Part shown: positions 10,171 through 16,893 of the stretch, in pieces
Numbering within the stretch: position 1 is the stretch's first letter
Layout: each line of letters begins with the position of its first letter
Origin: Geothrix fuzhouensis
Lineage (GTDB): Bacteria; Acidobacteriota; Holophagae; Holophagales; Holophagaceae
Direction of reading: 5' to 3'
NCBI RefSeq assembly: GCF_024609325.1
Contig: NZ_JANHMQ010000001.1
Coordinates: 558,001 to 622,000, forward strand
DNA: 64,000 nt
Made by a program: the position numbers and the translations under genes
Notes under the pieces: generated by a model
Databases searched by the model: none
The model's input: the letters and a program-made list of their open reading frames with translations, nothing else
Told to the model about the DNA's origin: nothing

Positions 10171-10917
10171 TCATCCCAGCCCCCTAGAAAGCACTTCCAC
10201 CAGGCCCCTTCCATTTGCCAGGGCCTGCACCAGTGCGGAACCCACCACGGGCGTGGCGCCCATGCTCCGCACGACGGCGAGGCTGGCGGCGTCGGCCAAT
10301 CCGAAGCCAACGGCGAGGGGGCGGGCGGTGAGGGCCTGCAGGTCCAACACGCGCTCCCACACAGGTGCGAGATCGGTGCCGGAACCAACCCCCGTGACGC
10401 CAAGGCGAGCCACGATGTAGGCGAAGCGCTGGGCGAAGGGTGCCGAAGCTCCTGCGTCCGGGCGTTCCGACAGGATCTGCCGGGCCCGCTCCAACGTGGT
10501 CGTGGGGGCCAGCAACGGCACCATGGGATAGCCTGCGGCCCGCAACTCAGCCTCGAAGACCGCCTCTTCTCCGAAGGGCAGATCCACCACCAGCAGGGCC
10601 TTCACCGGTGTGGGAGCAAGCAGATCCTTCAGCCTCGATGCCCCGATCTGGAGCAGCGGATTCAGGTAGGTGAAGAGGATGAGGTCGGGACTGTCGGTGA
10701 TCCCGGCGAGGGCTTCCAAGACTCGGACTGGGGTGGCACCCCGTGCGATCGCCCGGTGCGCGGCCGCCTGAAGCACCGGCCCATCCGCGATGGGGTCCGA
10801 GTGGGGCAGTCCCAGTTCGACGGCCTCGAGGCCCAGGGCCTTGGCGTCAGCCAGCAGCTGTGGCAGTGCTTCCAGCGAGGGATCGCCTGCCATGAGGAAG
10901 GGAAGCAACGGGTTCAT
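10171..10917 (-). CDS. trpA: Tryptophan synthase alpha subunit
   Basis: 248-residue TIM-barrel enzyme that cleaves indole-3-glycerol phosphate to indole and glyceraldehyde 3-phosphate, passing indole to TrpB. The catalytic Glu is in AVELGLPHSDP and the catalytic Asp in the following IADGP segment. The phosphate-binding GVTGVGSGTD and GFGLADAA motifs are present. It is the last gene of the trp operon; its ATG follows the trpB stop by one base. At 248 residues it is slightly shorter than the E. coli enzyme (268). No obvious terminator follows it. Confidence 0.96.
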   Translation of the reverse strand: MNPLLPFLMAGDPSLEALPQLLADAKALGLEAVELGLPHSDPIADGPVLQAAAHRAIARGATPVRVLEALAGITDSPDLILFTYLNPLLQIGASRLKDLLAPTPVKALLVVDLPFGEEAVFEAELRAAGYPMVPLLAPTTTLERARQILSERPDAGASAPFAQRFAYIVARLGVTGVGSGTDLAPVWERVLDLQALTARPLAVGFGLADAASLAVVRSMGATPVVGSALVQALANGRGLVEVLSRGLG

Positions 10918-10918
10918 G

Positions 10919-12103
10919 TCAGATCCCCAGACGCGACTGATAGGTGGACAGATCCTTGTCGCCCCGGCCGCTGAGACCCAGCAGGACCGTGGCGGCGCCT
11001 TCCCTGGCCAGTGCGGGCAGCGCAGCCAGCGCATGGCTGCTTTCCAGCGCAGGGAGGATGCCTTCGGTTTCACAGAGCAGGCGGGCACCTTCGAGTGCTT
11101 CATCATCGGAGGCACGGCGCACCTCCACTCGGCCGTCGAGCGCAAGCGCCGCGAGTTCGGGACCCAGCGCGGGGTAATCCAATCCGGCGCTGATGCTGGC
11201 GGTCTCGGCCGTGTGACCGTGCTCATCCTGGAGCAGGAGGGTCTTGCAGCCGTGCAGCACACCCATGCGCCCCCCATCGAGGCGCGCAGCGTGCTCGCCG
11301 AGGGCTTTCCCGTGGCCGCCAGCCTCCACGGCGATGCGGCGTAGGTCATCGTCCAGGAAAGGCAGCAGCAAGCCCAGGCCGTTGCTGCCCCCGCCAGCGC
11401 AGGCGAGGACGATCTCAGGCAGGCCACCGGACTGCTCCAACACCTGGGCGCGGGCCTCCTCGCCAATGACGGTCTGGAAGGTCCGCACCATGGTCGGGAA
11501 GGGATGCGGCCCGAGGGCCGAGCCAAGGATGTAGTGGGCCCGATCGCAGCGGCCAGCCCAGGCCCGCAGGGCCTCATTGACGGCCTCCTTGAGGGTGCCC
11601 TGCCCCGCCGCCACGGGCTCGACCTTGGTGCCGAAGAGTCGCATACGGGCCACGTTGGGCGCCTGCCGGGCCATATCCGTGACGCCCATGTAGACGGTGC
11701 AGGTCAGGCCCAGGCGCGCACAGGCCGCGGCGGTGGCCACGCCATGCTGCCCGGCGCCAGTCTCCGCGATGATTTCCGTCTTGCCCATGCGCCGGGCCAG
11801 CAGGGCCTGGGCGAGGGCGTTGTTGATCTTGTGGGCGCCGGTGTGGGTCAGGTCCTCCCGCTTGAGGAAGAGGGCCTTGAGCCCCACCTTCGCCGCCAGG
11901 CGTGGCGCGGGCGTGAGGGGCGTGGGGCGACCCACGAAGTGCCGCAGTTCAGCCTTCAGTTCGATCAGGAACGCGGGATCAGCCCAGGCGGCGCAGAAGG
12001 CCGCTTCCAGATCAAGCAGCGGTTGCATGAGCGTTTCCGGGGCGTAGCAGCCGCCAAGCTGCTGCGGGCCGAACCGCGTGGGAAGCGCGAACGAATCAGT
12101 CAT
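10919..12103 (-). CDS. trpB: Tryptophan synthase beta subunit
   Basis: 394-residue PLP enzyme that joins indole and serine to make tryptophan. The PLP lysine is in HTGAHKINNAL. The indole-tunnel region, AETGAGQHGVATA, and the phosphate-binding loop ACAGGGSNGLG are present. The segment after the loop reads GLGLLLPFLDD rather than the common AIGMFYPFIDD, a mild family variation. It overlaps the upstream trpF by 8 bases and is followed after 1 base by trpA, so the two synthase subunits are tightly coupled in translation. Confidence 0.96.
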   Translation of the reverse strand: MTDSFALPTRFGPQQLGGCYAPETLMQPLLDLEAAFCAAWADPAFLIELKAELRHFVGRPTPLTPAPRLAAKVGLKALFLKREDLTHTGAHKINNALAQALLARRMGKTEIIAETGAGQHGVATAAACARLGLTCTVYMGVTDMARQAPNVARMRLFGTKVEPVAAGQGTLKEAVNEALRAWAGRCDRAHYILGSALGPHPFPTMVRTFQTVIGEEARAQVLEQSGGLPEIVLACAGGGSNGLGLLLPFLDDDLRRIAVEAGGHGKALGEHAARLDGGRMGVLHGCKTLLLQDEHGHTAETASISAGLDYPALGPELAALALDGRVEVRRASDDEALEGARLLCETEGILPALESSHALAALPALAREGAATVLLGLSGRGDKDLSTYQSRLGI

Positions 12104-12734
12104 GGGTTCCCTTTCCTGCCAAGGCTGCCTGTCTCGCGGCCGCGACGAACGCTGCCACCTTTGCTGGATCCTTCACGCCTGGGCCCGCCTCCAGACGGCT
12201 CGCCGCGTCGAAGCCGCGCAAGTACGGGCGAGTTTCGAGTGGGAGTGCGGCGACCCTGTCCGCCAGGTTGGCGCCATCCAGGCCACCGGCGAGCAGGAAG
12301 GGCCCGGGGGGCGGAAAGGCCATGGGATGGCCCTGCCCCGAGCCCCCGGGCACCCCAGTTTGGGCCGGGCTGGATTCCCACAGGTAGAGGTCTGCGGGCA
12401 CCGCGGTCTGGCCCGGTTCGTCCGCCCAGGGCAGCAGGACGAAGAGGCCTGCCGCTCGCAACAACGCGATGCCGCGTTCGCATTCCGCCTTCGGCAGATA
12501 GGGTTGAACGCGCCGGACATTATGGCGTCGGGCTGTTTCGAAGACTGCCTCCGCGATTTCAGTCACCATCACCAAGACCGCGCGGTCGGCGAAGGCCTCC
12601 GCCACCGCCAGATTCGCGCAGTGCCGCGGGCTGGGAGGATGGAACACAAAGCCCAGCAGGTCCGCGCCCTGCTCCGCGGCGAAGGTCGCGTCTGCCGCAG
12701 TGGTGAGGCCGCAGACCTTGGCCACCAGGCTCAT
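12096..12734 (-). CDS. trpF: Phosphoribosylanthranilate isomerase
   Basis: 212-residue TIM-barrel isomerase that converts phosphoribosylanthranilate to the carboxyphenylamino deoxyribulose phosphate. The catalytic Cys is in VAKVCGLTTAADA near the N-terminus, and the family motif ADLLGFVFHPPSPRH follows. The C-terminal Asp and phosphate-binding part is LAGGLDGANL...RGFDAASRLEAGPGVKD. It overlaps trpC by 4 bases (ATGA) upstream and trpB by 8 bases downstream. Confidence 0.95.
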   Translation of the reverse strand: MSLVAKVCGLTTAADATFAAEQGADLLGFVFHPPSPRHCANLAVAEAFADRAVLVMVTEIAEAVFETARRHNVRRVQPYLPKAECERGIALLRAAGLFVLLPWADEPGQTAVPADLYLWESSPAQTGVPGGSGQGHPMAFPPPGPFLLAGGLDGANLADRVAALPLETRPYLRGFDAASRLEAGPGVKDPAKVAAFVAAARQAALAGKGTHD

Positions 12735-13567
12735 TGCGCCTCCTGGCGGAGGTCTGCGAAAACGCGCTCCAGGAACCCTTTGGGATCCGGGCTGCGCATG
12801 AGGGCCTCGCCGATGAGTACGGCCTCGAAACCCGCCCGCAGGGAGGCCTGGGCATCCTCAGGGGTGGCGAGGCCGGATTCGCGGACCAGCACCGCATCGG
12901 GAAAGGCTTGGCGCAAGGGCGCGGCGGTGGGTTCACCCAGGGTGAACGTGGAGAGATCCCGGGCGTTGATGCCCACCAGGCGGGCCCCAGACTCCTGGGC
13001 GAAGGGGACTTCCGTGAGGTCGTGCAGTTCCACGAGTGCCTCCATGCCCCGCTGCCGGGCGGCTTCGGCAAAGGTGGCCGTATGCCCTTTCAGCACCCGG
13101 ACGATGAGCAGGACCGCCTCGGCGCCGCAGGCCTCGGCCTCCGCGAGTTGGGCCTCGGAGATGACGAAACCCTTGTAGAGCCTCGGCAGACCGAACTCTG
13201 CTGCGGCGGCGAGGTGAGCTGCGGCTCCGCGGAAATAGGCCGGTTCCGCCAGGATCGAGAAAGCCGTCGCGCCGCCGTCCTTGTAGGCCTGGAGCTGGGT
13301 CTGAAGGGGCGTGCCGGCAGCGAAGGGGCCGAGCGAGGGCGAAGCCTGCTTGTACTCGGCGATCACAGCTCCGCCCCGGGCCGCGGCTTCCCGTCTCAGG
13401 GCCAGCTCGAAGGGACCTGAGCCCTCCAGGGGCGCGCGAACCGGCGGTGCCGTTGGCGATGCCTGGGCGAGGCGGGCAAGTTCAGAGACCAGTACACGCT
13501 GGAGATGCGAACTTTTGGGCAGTCCGGTGCCCCGGACCAGCGATGCGGGATCAGGCAGGCGACTCAC
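12731..13567 (-). CDS. trpC: Indole-3-glycerol phosphate synthase
   Basis: 278-residue TIM-barrel enzyme that closes the indole ring with loss of CO2 and water. The catalytic Lys region is seen as AVIAEYKQASPSLGP. A second lysine lies in LYKGFVI, and the active-site segments LVGINARDLSTF and VRESGLATPEDA are intact. It overlaps trpD by 4 bases upstream and trpF by 4 bases downstream. It is monofunctional, not fused to TrpF as in E. coli. Confidence 0.95.
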   Translation of the reverse strand: MSRLPDPASLVRGTGLPKSSHLQRVLVSELARLAQASPTAPPVRAPLEGSGPFELALRREAAARGGAVIAEYKQASPSLGPFAAGTPLQTQLQAYKDGGATAFSILAEPAYFRGAAAHLAAAAEFGLPRLYKGFVISEAQLAEAEACGAEAVLLIVRVLKGHTATFAEAARQRGMEALVELHDLTEVPFAQESGARLVGINARDLSTFTLGEPTAAPLRQAFPDAVLVRESGLATPEDAQASLRAGFEAVLIGEALMRSPDPKGFLERVFADLRQEAQ

Positions 13568-14598
13568 GGCTGCACCCCCGCCATGGGAAACGGCAAGGTA
13601 AAGCCGTGATCCAGGATGGCCCGCAGCTCGCGGAAGGTTTGGGCCAAGCCGTCCAGCGAACCGCCCTGATGCAAGATCAGTCCCAACCCTGCTTGCAAGG
13701 CCACGGCATCTGCCACGGCCGGGCGGAACTCCGCGTGGCCGGCCCCACCGAAGATGCCGCGGGCCACGGCCAGGGCCTCGCCCCGGTCGGCCACCCGCAA
13801 GGCGTGACGGCTGGGCTGGGTGATGCCCAGTTCCCGGGGAACGATCACCTGGGGCGCCAGGACCCGTCCCTCTCTCACCGCCACCACCGTCGTGGGGCCT
13901 TCAATGGAGGCTTCATCGAGCCCCTTCCCTTCCGCGTCCTTGCCGTGGATGACGAAGGCCCGCTCCAGGTTGGCACGCCGGGCCAGGGCCCCTGCCATGG
14001 GAGCCAGCAGCTCTTCGCGCGCCACGCCGAGCACCTGCAGGGGCGGATGCCCCGGATTCAAGAGCGGTCCCAGCAGGTTGAAGATCGTGGGGATGCCCAA
14101 CCGGCGGCGGATCTCCCGGAGTCGGCCCATCAGCGGGTGGTAGGCCGGCGCGAAGAGGAAGACGAACCGGTGCTCCCGGAGGTCCGTCTCCAGGTCCGAG
14201 ACCGCTCTGGAGAGGTCGTAGCCCAGGGCCTCCATCAGGTCGGCGCTGCCGCAGACACCCGTGGCGGCGCGGTTCCCGTGCTTCACCACGGGTACGCCGA
14301 GGGTCGGGAGAAATAGCGCCGTGAGGGTGCTGAGGTTGGCGGTGGAAGCCCCATCGCCACCCGTCCCCACCACATCGATGGCGCCGTCGGGCGCTTGCGG
14401 GAACGGCACCGCGACCTCGAACAGCGAATCCGCAAAGGCCGCCAGCTCGTGGGCCTCGGGCACCCGCTGGGCCAAGAGGGCCAGGCAGGCACCCACCAGC
14501 AGCGCGTCCGTGTCCTGGTCGATGAAGATATGCATGAGCTCCGAGGCGGTGGCCTCCGGCAGCGGGCGGATGGGGTTGTGGGTGGTCAGCAGGGTCAT
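13564..14598 (-). CDS. trpD: Anthranilate phosphoribosyltransferase
   Basis: 344-residue enzyme that transfers phosphoribosyl from PRPP to anthranilate. The PRPP-binding glycine loop VGTGGDGASTANLSTLTA and the KHGNRAATGVCGSADLMEALG anthranilate-site region (HGNR) are present. So is the family LLGPLLNPGHPP motif. The ATG at 14598 forms an ATGA overlap with the trpG stop. A longer in-frame reading frame extends upstream only because it runs antisense-free through trpG in another frame. TrpD is not fused to TrpG. Confidence 0.95.
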   Translation of the reverse strand: MTLLTTHNPIRPLPEATASELMHIFIDQDTDALLVGACLALLAQRVPEAHELAAFADSLFEVAVPFPQAPDGAIDVVGTGGDGASTANLSTLTALFLPTLGVPVVKHGNRAATGVCGSADLMEALGYDLSRAVSDLETDLREHRFVFLFAPAYHPLMGRLREIRRRLGIPTIFNLLGPLLNPGHPPLQVLGVAREELLAPMAGALARRANLERAFVIHGKDAEGKGLDEASIEGPTTVVAVREGRVLAPQVIVPRELGITQPSRHALRVADRGEALAVARGIFGGAGHAEFRPAVADAVALQAGLGLILHQGGSLDGLAQTFRELRAILDHGFTLPFPMAGVQP

Positions 14599-15173
14599 CG
14601 TCGAGTTTCCTTGGCGAGGTGGAGGAAGTTCGCGAGCATCGCCGGACCGTCCGGCGTGAGGATGCTTTCGGGGTGGAACTGCACCCCCCAGCGGGGCAGG
14701 TCGCGGTGGGCCATGGCCATGATCTCGCCACCGGAACTGCGGCCCGTGATGCGCCAACAGGCGGGCAGCGTGGCCGGATCCGCGATGAGGCTGTGGTAGC
14801 GACCCACGAGAAGGCCAGGAGGCAACCCCTGGAAGAGTCCCGTCCCGTCGTGTTCCAGGGCTGTGGCCTCGCCATGCAGAGGCTCGAGGGCCCGGATGAC
14901 CCGGCCCCCGGTGGCCGCGGCCAGGGCCTGGTGACCCAGGCAGACGCCCAGCAGCGGGATGGTCCAGTCGGAACCCGCGAGGGCCATGTGCGCCGGGCTT
15001 TCCGTGGGGTGACCGGGGCCGGGCGAGAGCACCACGGCTTCGGGCCGGAGGGCCTTGGCCTCGTCGAGGGTGATGGTGTCGTGGCGGACGACCTTCACGG
15101 GAGCGCCCAGCGTCTCGAAGGCCTGCACCAGGTTGTAGGTGAAGGAATCCAGGGCATCGATAAGGAGGATCAT
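14595..15173 (-). CDS. trpG: Anthranilate synthase component II (glutamine amidotransferase)
   Basis: 192-residue class I glutamine amidotransferase that supplies ammonia to TrpE. The catalytic Cys lies in LLGVCLGHQALA, the oxyanion loop in VLSPGPGHPTES, and the His-Glu pair in VQFHPESILT. A GGAGG lies 7 bases before the ATG at 15173. That ribosome-binding site belongs to an inserted segment (15174-15276). The trpG start overlaps the stop of a 41-codon ORF carried by that insertion. TrpG could also serve para-aminobenzoate synthesis; no separate pabA is visible here. Confidence 0.95.
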   Translation of the reverse strand: MILLIDALDSFTYNLVQAFETLGAPVKVVRHDTITLDEAKALRPEAVVLSPGPGHPTESPAHMALAGSDWTIPLLGVCLGHQALAAATGGRVIRALEPLHGEATALEHDGTGLFQGLPPGLLVGRYHSLIADPATLPACWRITGRSSGGEIMAMAHRDLPRWGVQFHPESILTPDGPAMLANFLHLAKETRR

Positions 15174-15295
15174 GCCAACCTCCGCTCGGGAGCCGATGCC
15201 CTCTCCCTCCTATCGCGGCGCTCCTCCACGCCGCTCCTGTGCGCTTGGGCTGCGCCCTGCTCGCGCAGAGTCGGGACATCGATCAGGAGGATCAT
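15174..15295 (-). mobile_element. Small hairpin-rich insertion at the trpE/trpG junction with target duplication
   Basis: The first 19 bases of trpG (15173-15155) recur at 15295-15277 with one mismatch, directly overlapping the trpE stop as ATGA. Between the copies lie 103 bases with two inverted repeats: CTGCGC/GCGCAG (15268-15263 with 15255-15250) and GCGGCG/CGCCGC (15234-15229 with 15220-15215). The upstream copy opens a 41-codon ORF (15295-15170). Its TGA overlaps the real trpG ATG, so stop-start coupling is preserved. It has no transposase and looks like a REP- or MITE-like element. I infer an insertion event; the alternative is a tandem duplication that has since diverged. Confidence 0.6.
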
Positions 15296-16692
15296 CGGTC
15301 GGCTCCGGGCAATTGGACCCCAAGGGCCTGGGCGATGGCGCCCAGCTTGTGCAGGGTTTCGAAGTACTCGGACTCGGGTTTCGAGGCCCGCACCACGCCG
15401 GCCCCGGCCTGGATGTAGGCGGCGCCACCGGTGTAGACCGCCGTGCGCAGGATGAGGGCCGTGTCTAGGGCGCCATCGGTGCCCAGCCGCAGCAGGACGC
15501 CGCCGTAAGGCCCGCGCATCTCGCCTTCCAGTTCAGCGATCCGCTGACAGGCGCGCAGCTTGGGAGCGCCGCTGACCGTGCCGGCCGGGAAGGCCGCCGC
15601 CAGCACGTCCAGGGCATCCACGCCGTCTCGGAGCTTCGCCTTCACGGTCGTGGTGAGGTGCAGGACGTGGCTTGTACGCTGGAGTGCCAGCGGCAGTTCC
15701 ACCCGCACACCACCGGGAACGGCCACGCGGCCCAGGTCGTTGCGGGCCAGGTCCACCAACATTTGGTGTTCGGCCAATTCCTTGGGATCACGCTTGAGCG
15801 CCTCGAAGCGGGCAGTGTCTTCCTCGGCACTGCCACCCCGGGGCACGGTGCCGGCGATGGGCAAGGTCTCGGCCTCGTCATCCTGCACCCGCACCAGCAT
15901 CTCCGGCGACGCACCCACCAGTGCGAAGTCCTCCCATTCCAGCAGGAATCCATAAGGACTCGGGTTCAGGCGACGGAGGCGGCGATAGGCCTCCAGCGGC
16001 GGCGGCGGGTCCCCGATGCGGAACCGCTGGCTGGGCACCAGCTGGTAGATGTCACCATCCAGGATCAGTTCCTGGGCGGTCCGTACGGCTCCTTCGTAGG
16101 TTTCGCGGGTGATCTGGGCGGTGGCCCGAGGTGTCGAGGCGCTGGGGCCGGGATCGGCCACTCCCCCAAGGAGTCGTGCCCGGAGGTCGCGCAGGCGGCG
16201 GAAGCCGGCTTCGGCATCCACATCCACGGTTTGTAGCTCCGCCACCTGATGCAGGTGATCGAAGACCAGGGCCACATCGAAGCGGCGCACCCACAGGCCC
16301 GGCAGGCCCAGGCTGTCCCGGGCGGGCAGCGGCAGGGTGGGCTCCAAGGCGCCCACGGCCTCAAAGCCGAGATACCCGGCGCAGCCCACACCCACCGGCA
16401 ATGGTTCCCTCGGGGCCGGCAGTTCCGCGGCAGGATCACTCATCGCTCCGCTGGGCGAAGATCCCGCCAAGGCACGCAGGGCCTCGATCCAGCCGCTGGC
16501 GGGCGGGTCCAGGCGACATTCCGCCGGGCCCTCCAGCAGCACGAAGCTGTGGCGGCCTACGCGCTCGCCCTGGTCACACGACTCCAGCAGCAGGCTGGCG
16601 CCCACTGGGCGTAGAGCCAGGTAGGCGGCCAAGGGGGTCAACAGGTCCGCAGGAAAGGGATGGCGGAGCAGGAGCCTGGATTCAGGTGACAT
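15292..16692 (-). CDS. trpE: Anthranilate synthase component I
   Basis: 466-residue chorismate-using enzyme that makes anthranilate with ammonia from TrpG. The C-terminal catalytic domain shows IAGTVPRGGSAEED, DLARNDLGRVA, FPAGTVSGAPKLRACQ and GGAAYIQAGAGVV, all standard for TrpE/PabB. The N-terminal region has LLESCDQGERVGRHSFV, resembling the LLES element of the tryptophan feedback site. The ATG at 16692 lies only 19 bases after the attenuator terminator and has no strong ribosome-binding sequence. It is the first structural gene of the trpEGDCFBA operon. Confidence 0.95.
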   Translation of the reverse strand: MSPESRLLLRHPFPADLLTPLAAYLALRPVGASLLLESCDQGERVGRHSFVLLEGPAECRLDPPASGWIEALRALAGSSPSGAMSDPAAELPAPREPLPVGVGCAGYLGFEAVGALEPTLPLPARDSLGLPGLWVRRFDVALVFDHLHQVAELQTVDVDAEAGFRRLRDLRARLLGGVADPGPSASTPRATAQITRETYEGAVRTAQELILDGDIYQLVPSQRFRIGDPPPPLEAYRRLRRLNPSPYGFLLEWEDFALVGASPEMLVRVQDDEAETLPIAGTVPRGGSAEEDTARFEALKRDPKELAEHQMLVDLARNDLGRVAVPGGVRVELPLALQRTSHVLHLTTTVKAKLRDGVDALDVLAAAFPAGTVSGAPKLRACQRIAELEGEMRGPYGGVLLRLGTDGALDTALILRTAVYTGGAAYIQAGAGVVRASKPESEYFETLHKLGAIAQALGVQLPGADR

Positions 16693-16710
16693 GGCGATTC
16701 GTCCACATAC

Positions 16711-16737
16711 AAAAAAGCCCGACCATGGGGTCGGGCT
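16711..16737 (-). terminator. Attenuator terminator of the trp operon
   Basis: In the transcript, AGCCCGACC (16737-16729) and GGTCGGGCT (16724-16716) form a 9-bp perfect stem with a 4-base loop, followed by a run of T (16716-16711). It stands between the leader ORF and trpE, where it can only act as a conditional terminator of the operon. Confidence 0.88.
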
Positions 16738-16795
16738 CGGAGGGTCCGGGGTGGCGTTGGCCGCTAGGCCTCGCGCGAGGAGCCATCCGAGCCCG
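16732..16795 (-). promoter_or_regulatory. Predicted antiterminator of the trp leader
   Basis: CGGGCTCGG (16795-16787), immediately after the three Trp codons, is perfectly complementary to CCGAGCCCG (16740-16732). The latter shares 6 bases with the 5' arm of the terminator, so the two structures exclude each other. A further upstream segment, CCGACCC (16841-16835), could pair with the first arm with one bulge. GGCCTC/GAGGCC (16826-16821 with 16772-16767) could also enclose the Trp codons. Confidence 0.75.
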
Positions 16796-16856
16796 TACGC
16801 CACCACCAAGCCCCATGAAGGAGGCCCTGGCGAAGGGTCGGAAAGGACAGCGGCAT
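16764..16856 (-). CDS. trpL: trp leader peptide, 30 residues with three consecutive Trp
   Basis: A short ORF runs from ATG (16856-16854) to TAG (16766-16764). Residues 17-19 are Trp-Trp-Trp (codons at 16808-16800). Such tandem codons for the end product are the hallmark of leader-peptide attenuation: ribosome stalling at low charged tRNA-Trp favours the antiterminator. The position between a sigma-70-like promoter and the terminator fits. There is no Shine-Dalgarno sequence, and the predicted transcription start falls at or next to the ATG, so the leader may be translated leaderless. The peptide itself probably has no other function. Confidence 0.8.
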   Translation of the reverse strand: MPLSFPTLRQGLLHGAWWWRTGSDGSSREA

Positions 16857-16863
16857 AAGACCG

Positions 16864-16893
16864 ATGAAACCCCATCGGCGCGGGCCCTGTCAA
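16864..16893 (-). promoter_or_regulatory. Candidate promoter of the trp operon
   Basis: A perfect TTGACA (16893-16888) is followed after 18 bases by TTTCAT (16869-16864), four of six matches to the -10 consensus. The spacing would start transcription about 7 bases later, at the leader ATG. The region is shared with the divergent gene at 16904. Confidence 0.6.

Follow-up and report, generated by a model that had tools for sequence, protein, structure and literature searches.

A predicted ribosome-mediated attenuator upstream of the trp operon of Geothrix fuzhouensis, with similar leaders in other Acidobacteriota

The region upstream of trpE in Geothrix fuzhouensis very probably encodes a ribosome-mediated transcription attenuator of trpEGDCFBA, in which ribosome stalling and the response to tryptophan are predicted from sequence and folding models. 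This reading is based on the conservation of the Trp codons and of both alternative pairings, with compensatory changes, and on a computed switch that falls at the Trp codons. The locus has a short open reading frame (ORF) in which codons for the operon's own amino acid product are clustered, an antiterminator and a terminator that share bases and exclude each other and, by computation only, a ribosome position at the control codons that chooses the fold.

Geothrix is a soil and sediment bacterium of the phylum Acidobacteriota. When Naville and Gautheret surveyed attenuators in 2010, leader peptides were known only from Proteobacteria and Actinobacteria; their study added his leaders in Firmicutes and reported almost no acidobacterial attenuator with an associated function (PMC2965389). 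No earlier report of a leader-peptide trp attenuator in Acidobacteria was found in the literature searched, subscription papers lying outside it. The mechanism is therefore known, and as far as we searched the phylum is new for it. A phylum-wide trp attenuator would fill this gap and provide a ready-made prediction of regulation in a phylum of major importance in soil. For specialists, the interest lies in such a phylum-wide spread, a probably leaderless leader, transfer across phyla and leaders with both Tyr and Trp codons.

Results

The trp operon and its leader

The DNA analysed, referred to as the window, is a 64-kb stretch of the genome (64,000 nucleotides). The first structural gene, trpE (15292..16692, minus strand), was identified by its best NCBIfam match (TIGR00564 trpE; 397 bits, under the cut-off of 517.7 for this model) together with its operon context. 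It is followed on the same strand by trpG, trpD, trpC, trpF, trpB and trpA (10171..15173), and these genes form a genuine trp operon, trpEGDCFBA. The closest named relatives of the window are Geothrix species and other Holophagaceae, as anticipated in a preliminary description that had guessed an acidobacterial genome from the letters alone.

All elements of the attenuator could be confirmed on the minus strand between 16893 and 16711. A 30-codon ORF, trpL (16764..16856), runs from the ATG at 16856 to the TAG at 16766-16764 and encodes the peptide MPLSFPTLRQGLLHGAWWWRTGSDGSSREA. Its control codons are three tandem Trp codons at 16800..16808, and every relative has two to four. Segment 2, the 5' arm of the antiterminator (CGGGCTCGGA, 16786..16795), lies inside the ORF, and a gap of 4 nt separates it from the last Trp codon. 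It forms 10 bp with segment 3, the 3' arm (TCCGAGCCCG, 16732..16741), which is its exact complement. The intrinsic terminator (16711..16737), recognised by a terminator scan and by conserved pairing, consists of a 9-bp stem with a CCAT loop (AGCCCGACC-CCAT-GGTCGGGCT at 16737-16716) and a T-run to 16711; 18 nt separate the T-run from the trpE ATG at 16692. Since six bases (16737-16732) are common to the antiterminator 3' arm and the left arm of the terminator, the two structures are mutually exclusive. In the computed fold, as long as segment 3 is still missing from the transcript, segment 2 can pair with the 5' part of the leader, a pairing that is a candidate for the 1:2 protector or pause hairpin of such attenuators.

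The promoter, the 30-codon ORF, the Trp codons, the 9-bp terminator stem with its T-run and the six shared bases are thus all present as the preliminary description had them. For the antiterminator, the exact complementarity that it claimed stands, and the helix is one base pair longer than the length it gave; the 5' arm does follow the Trp codons, not immediately but after the gap of 4 nt. The leader stop, placed there about 20 bases past this arm, is exactly 19 nt past it. Around the stop, the stretch GAGGCCTAGCGGCC (window 16759-16772) is near-invariant in Geothrix, synonymous positions included. It can fold as a 4-bp hairpin (GGCC/GGCC) or pair with an upstream GGCCTC, and is perhaps a pause or delayed-release element.

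When both strands of the window were searched for ORFs of 10-60 codons that contain the pattern W.?W and have a strong terminator within 130 nt, this was the single site, and ten dinucleotide-shuffled windows yielded none. In the whole Geothrix genome the leader motif occurs once, as the trpE leader. We also searched upstream of ilvB, leuA and hisG (at most 900 nt, in up to five Holophagaceae genomes) and found no attenuator there, so that among the operons tested the control is specific to trp. In one genome (G053), a short ORF starting LVSWWF lies just upstream of both ilvB (L142) and leuA (L147), without a terminator.

Promoter and 5' end

For comparison we used the 61 of 77 genomes of the same family that had a TrpE match, here called the relatives. 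The TTGACA -35 box (16888..16893, minus strand) is conserved: 53 of the 61 have an exact TTGACA 29-33 nt upstream of the leader start, and in 44 the distance to the leader ATG is exactly 31 nt. The -10 box, TTTCAT (16864..16869), is weak; it follows an 18-bp spacer and ends 7 nt before the ATG. A consensus promoter scan does not call it, although it is conserved: the 44 genomes in which TTGACA lies at 31 nt all have T, A and T at hexamer positions 1, 5 and 6. In 51 of the 61 relatives, the leader start is not preceded by any recognisable Shine-Dalgarno-like motif. The fixed spacing of TTGACA and the missing Shine-Dalgarno motif point to a 5' end on the ATG itself or on the base preceding it, and the leader ORF is probably leaderless, as is known for trpL of Sinorhizobium meliloti (PMC7298713). 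The leaders of the more distant genera g3, g7 and g9 do not keep the fixed TTGACA spacing; in most of them the start codon is GTG or TTG and is preceded by GGAG or AGGAG.

Inheritance and transfer of the module

A Trp-rich short ORF with two to four clustered Trp codons is found upstream of trpE in all 61 relatives, and a T-run after the leader was recognised in 59, the remaining two having a hairpin with an interrupted T-run. Within Holophagaceae, the attenuator module is inherited with its operon. Genera g9, g7 and g3 (L055-L062) have a different TrpE (40-45% identity), yet their leaders are Trp-rich too; in g9, TrpB is still at 78% identity and a DAHP synthase gene lies within the operon.

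Outside Holophagaceae, the closest TrpE proteins belong to Lysobacteraceae and Opitutaceae (about 62-70% identity), as compared with 40-45% for TrpE of other Holophagaceae genera. The upstream regions in Lysobacteraceae (L194, L196-L198, L200) and Opitutaceae (L203, L204) have the same kind of promoter, leader and attenuator: TTGACA is present, the leader reads, for example, AWWWRRGSGDSPGA, and the GGCTCGG/CCGAGCC arms and those of the terminator recur. Lysobacter also keeps the TTGACA-TTTCAT-ATG spacing of Geothrix to within a base, and Lysobacter silvestris shares the gene order trpEGDCFBA. Evidently, judging from these sequences, the complete switch has moved together with its operon between Holophagaceae, Lysobacteraceae and Opitutaceae.

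This common promoter, leader, attenuator and gene order would also be expected if Geothrix had imported attenuator and operon from Gammaproteobacteria. We regard such an origin as improbable, because among 151 sampled genomes of the Lysobacter order this TrpE type was present in the seed only, 146 others having matches at 37-45% identity, and because Lysobacteraceae are placed beside the Holophagaceae genus g5 in the trees (98/88 for TrpE; 90/92 for concatenated E, G, D, C and B), with an AU p of 0.047 against a Holophagaceae clade in the concatenated tree. In the order of the Opitutaceae locus, the type occurs in 1 of 86 genomes. The isolated occurrence in both orders and the position of Lysobacteraceae beside g5 make transfer out of Holophagaceae the better reading, and this was probably its direction. 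To speak of a proteobacterial layout in an acidobacterium, as the preliminary description did, is thus misleading: trp leaders occur across Acidobacteriota, and Lysobacteraceae probably acquired theirs from Holophagaceae. With a probably leaderless ORF and a switch left intact by transfer across phyla, such switches may be able to work in foreign transcription-translation machinery.

Conservation of the pairings

Helix conservation was counted on 52 aligned leaders. The antiterminator pairs were kept in 96.0% of cells, against 54.2% and 48.8% on a slide by one column, and the terminator pairs in 99.6%; these counts are inflated by relatedness, while changes on both sides of the helices are visible in the alignment. 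They include a double-sided change from C-G to U-A in seven sequences of the antiterminator and 12 compensatory cells across 4 pairs of the terminator. Among the relatives, the first Trp codon is sometimes replaced by Tyr or Ser and the middle one by Arg, Tyr or Phe.

A terminated leader could also serve mainly as a source of a short RNA or peptide that acts in trans, like rnTrpL and peTrpL of Sinorhizobium, attenuation of trpE being secondary. S. meliloti trpL, also leaderless, does give rise to an RNA and a peptide that work in trans (PMC7298713). In the leaders studied here, however, it is the Trp codons, the two helix arms and the T-run that are most conserved, and the N-terminal half of the peptide is more variable, which makes a principal role in trans very unlikely.

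Computed switch point

To model the effect of the ribosome, we moved it codon by codon along the leader and folded the RNA downstream of its edge, which was set 12 nt beyond the first base in the A site; segment 4 was left out, as if still to be transcribed. In the window, the probability of the antiterminator was 0.99 at the first Trp codon, 0.79 at the second and 0.48 at the third, and 0.00 at all later codons up to and including the stop. Among 59 relatives, the same folding gave 58 with a probability above 0.5 when the ribosome was on the first Trp codon, and none once it was two or more codons beyond the last Trp. Ribosome-masked folding and an alignment upstream of trpE were the checks proposed with the original suggestion of a leader-peptide attenuator. 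Both bear it out: the fold switches at the Trp codons, and these codons and both pairings are retained in the family with compensatory changes.

Equilibrium folding of the whole RNA is less clear-cut. With a ribosome on the first Trp codon, the terminator often wins (family mean probability 0.65), and without a ribosome the antiterminator is favoured in the full-length RNA of the window (0.93) and the terminator in that of 56 of 59 relatives. Such folding is noisy and not decisive as a test of the switch, and for this the folding before segment 4 was used. The model hence depends on segment 2:3 forming before segment 4, that is, on co-transcriptional order.

In the proposed mechanism, transcription would start at the leader ATG or a single base upstream. 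Under a shortage of charged tRNA-Trp, the ribosome would stall with the first Trp codon in the A site, and its front edge would reach just about to the start of segment 2 (16795-16786). Segment 2 could then pair with the emerging segment 3 (16741-16732), occupying the left arm of the terminator, and RNA polymerase would read into trpE. With plentiful tryptophan, the ribosome would cover segment 2 no more than one codon after the last Trp and would move on to the stop. Segment 2 being covered, segment 3 would pair with segment 4, and transcription would end in the T-run before trpE in what we infer to be a Trp-dependent manner. A ribosome waiting at the leader stop would sit between the two arms and should therefore hinder their pairing.

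A ribosome stalled on the last Trp codon partly covers segment 2, whose start is 4 nt further on. An inverted logic, in which the stalled ribosome masks segment 2 so that low tryptophan brings termination and ribosome release brings readthrough, could draw on this short distance and on the masking of most of segment 2 by a stall on the third Trp codon, but it is scarcely credible, as segment 2 is free during a stall on the first, E. coli ilv shows the same geometry, and the trp genes would be switched off during tryptophan shortage.

Comparison with known attenuators

Like the Geothrix leader, trpL of E. coli has tandem Trp codons and a choice between antiterminator and terminator in front of a trp operon. 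In E. coli trpL, however, the Trp codons lie 14 nt ahead of segment 2, the stop precedes segment 2, and a Shine-Dalgarno-like stretch stands before the ATG, which the Geothrix leader lacks. The closer parallels in geometry are E. coli ilvL and leuL, in which the leader ORF also runs through segment 2, with the stop 23 nt (ilvL) and 25 nt (leuL) past it, as compared with 19 nt in Geothrix. With the same folding approach, the transition in E. coli K-12 came about three codons after the last Trp for trpL, two to three codons after the Leu run for leuL and on the Ile codons for ilvL; the ilv and leu leaders thus switch, as in Geothrix, on their control codons or no more than three codons away. The likeness seen is one of geometry; ilvGMEDA and leuABCD are other operons with Ile, Val or Leu control codons. 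The stop past segment 2 in all three leaders suggests a ribosome logic of the ilv/leu rather than the trp kind. An expected departure from E. coli logic therefore holds with respect to trp and is no novelty, given the ilv and leu leaders.

Scored against Rfam, the region did not reach the Trp_leader family RF00513 (17.8 bits against a threshold of 41 bits). No match to a T-box or other riboswitch was obtained upstream of trpE, and at gathering scores the window holds only a tRNA. Other Rfam families gave no match at gathering and permissive thresholds, and the best weak ones fit the terminator hairpin.

S. meliloti trpLE(G) resembles the Geothrix locus in its leaderless trpL (PMC7298713) and consecutive Trp codons; it differs in a 14-codon leader, in trpE(G) and in a 5' end that is mapped there and inferred in Geothrix. 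Actinobacterial trp attenuators (Corynebacterium, Streptomyces; PMC1262725) share leaders with double or triple UGG and GC-rich terminators, in another phylum and with other sequences.

Leaders in other acidobacterial families

In other acidobacterial families, we scanned 67 regions upstream of trpE, and in 24 a strong terminator lay near the gene. Of these 24, 20 had a leader with paired Trp codons, as compared with a mean of 0.85 and a maximum of 2 in shuffles. Most, not all, of 19 such leaders have an antiterminator that switches at the Trp codons or a few codons after them. Many ORFs with a Trp pair before trpE, where no terminator follows, were set aside as a recurring C-terminal sequence (...LDMLVAQA..FEWWTG...), which we take to be the end of AroE, and not leaders.

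Of the 114 residues beside Trp codons in the 19 leaders, 28 are Tyr; among the 324 other residues, Tyr occurs 9 times. Leaders from four genomes with tyrA in the operon have three to four Tyr codons beside Trp, against none to two in 18 with no tyrA in the stretch read (Mann-Whitney p 0.0007), a test that overstates independence, since one family contributes two of the four, and in which this stretch stops soon after trpA for a few of the 18. The four leaders contain RYYYWWYM (L300/G128), NYYFWWYY (L303/G132), QGYYWYWRW (L307/G229) and GYDYWYWRG (L309/G244), and the tyrA-containing trp operons mostly carry a DAHP synthase gene too. The Tyr codons suggest mixed sensing of Trp and Tyr in tyrA operons, and these leaders offer a test case for control codons that evolve with operon content. 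Whether trp attenuation in Acidobacteriota is old and phylum-wide, with codons that track the operon (Trp, or Trp/Tyr with tyrA) and a promoter-leader-operon unit that crosses phyla, we judge to be evenly balanced. For G082, which has the leader motif YYTYYWW and a contig that ends early, we predict an operon with tyrA.
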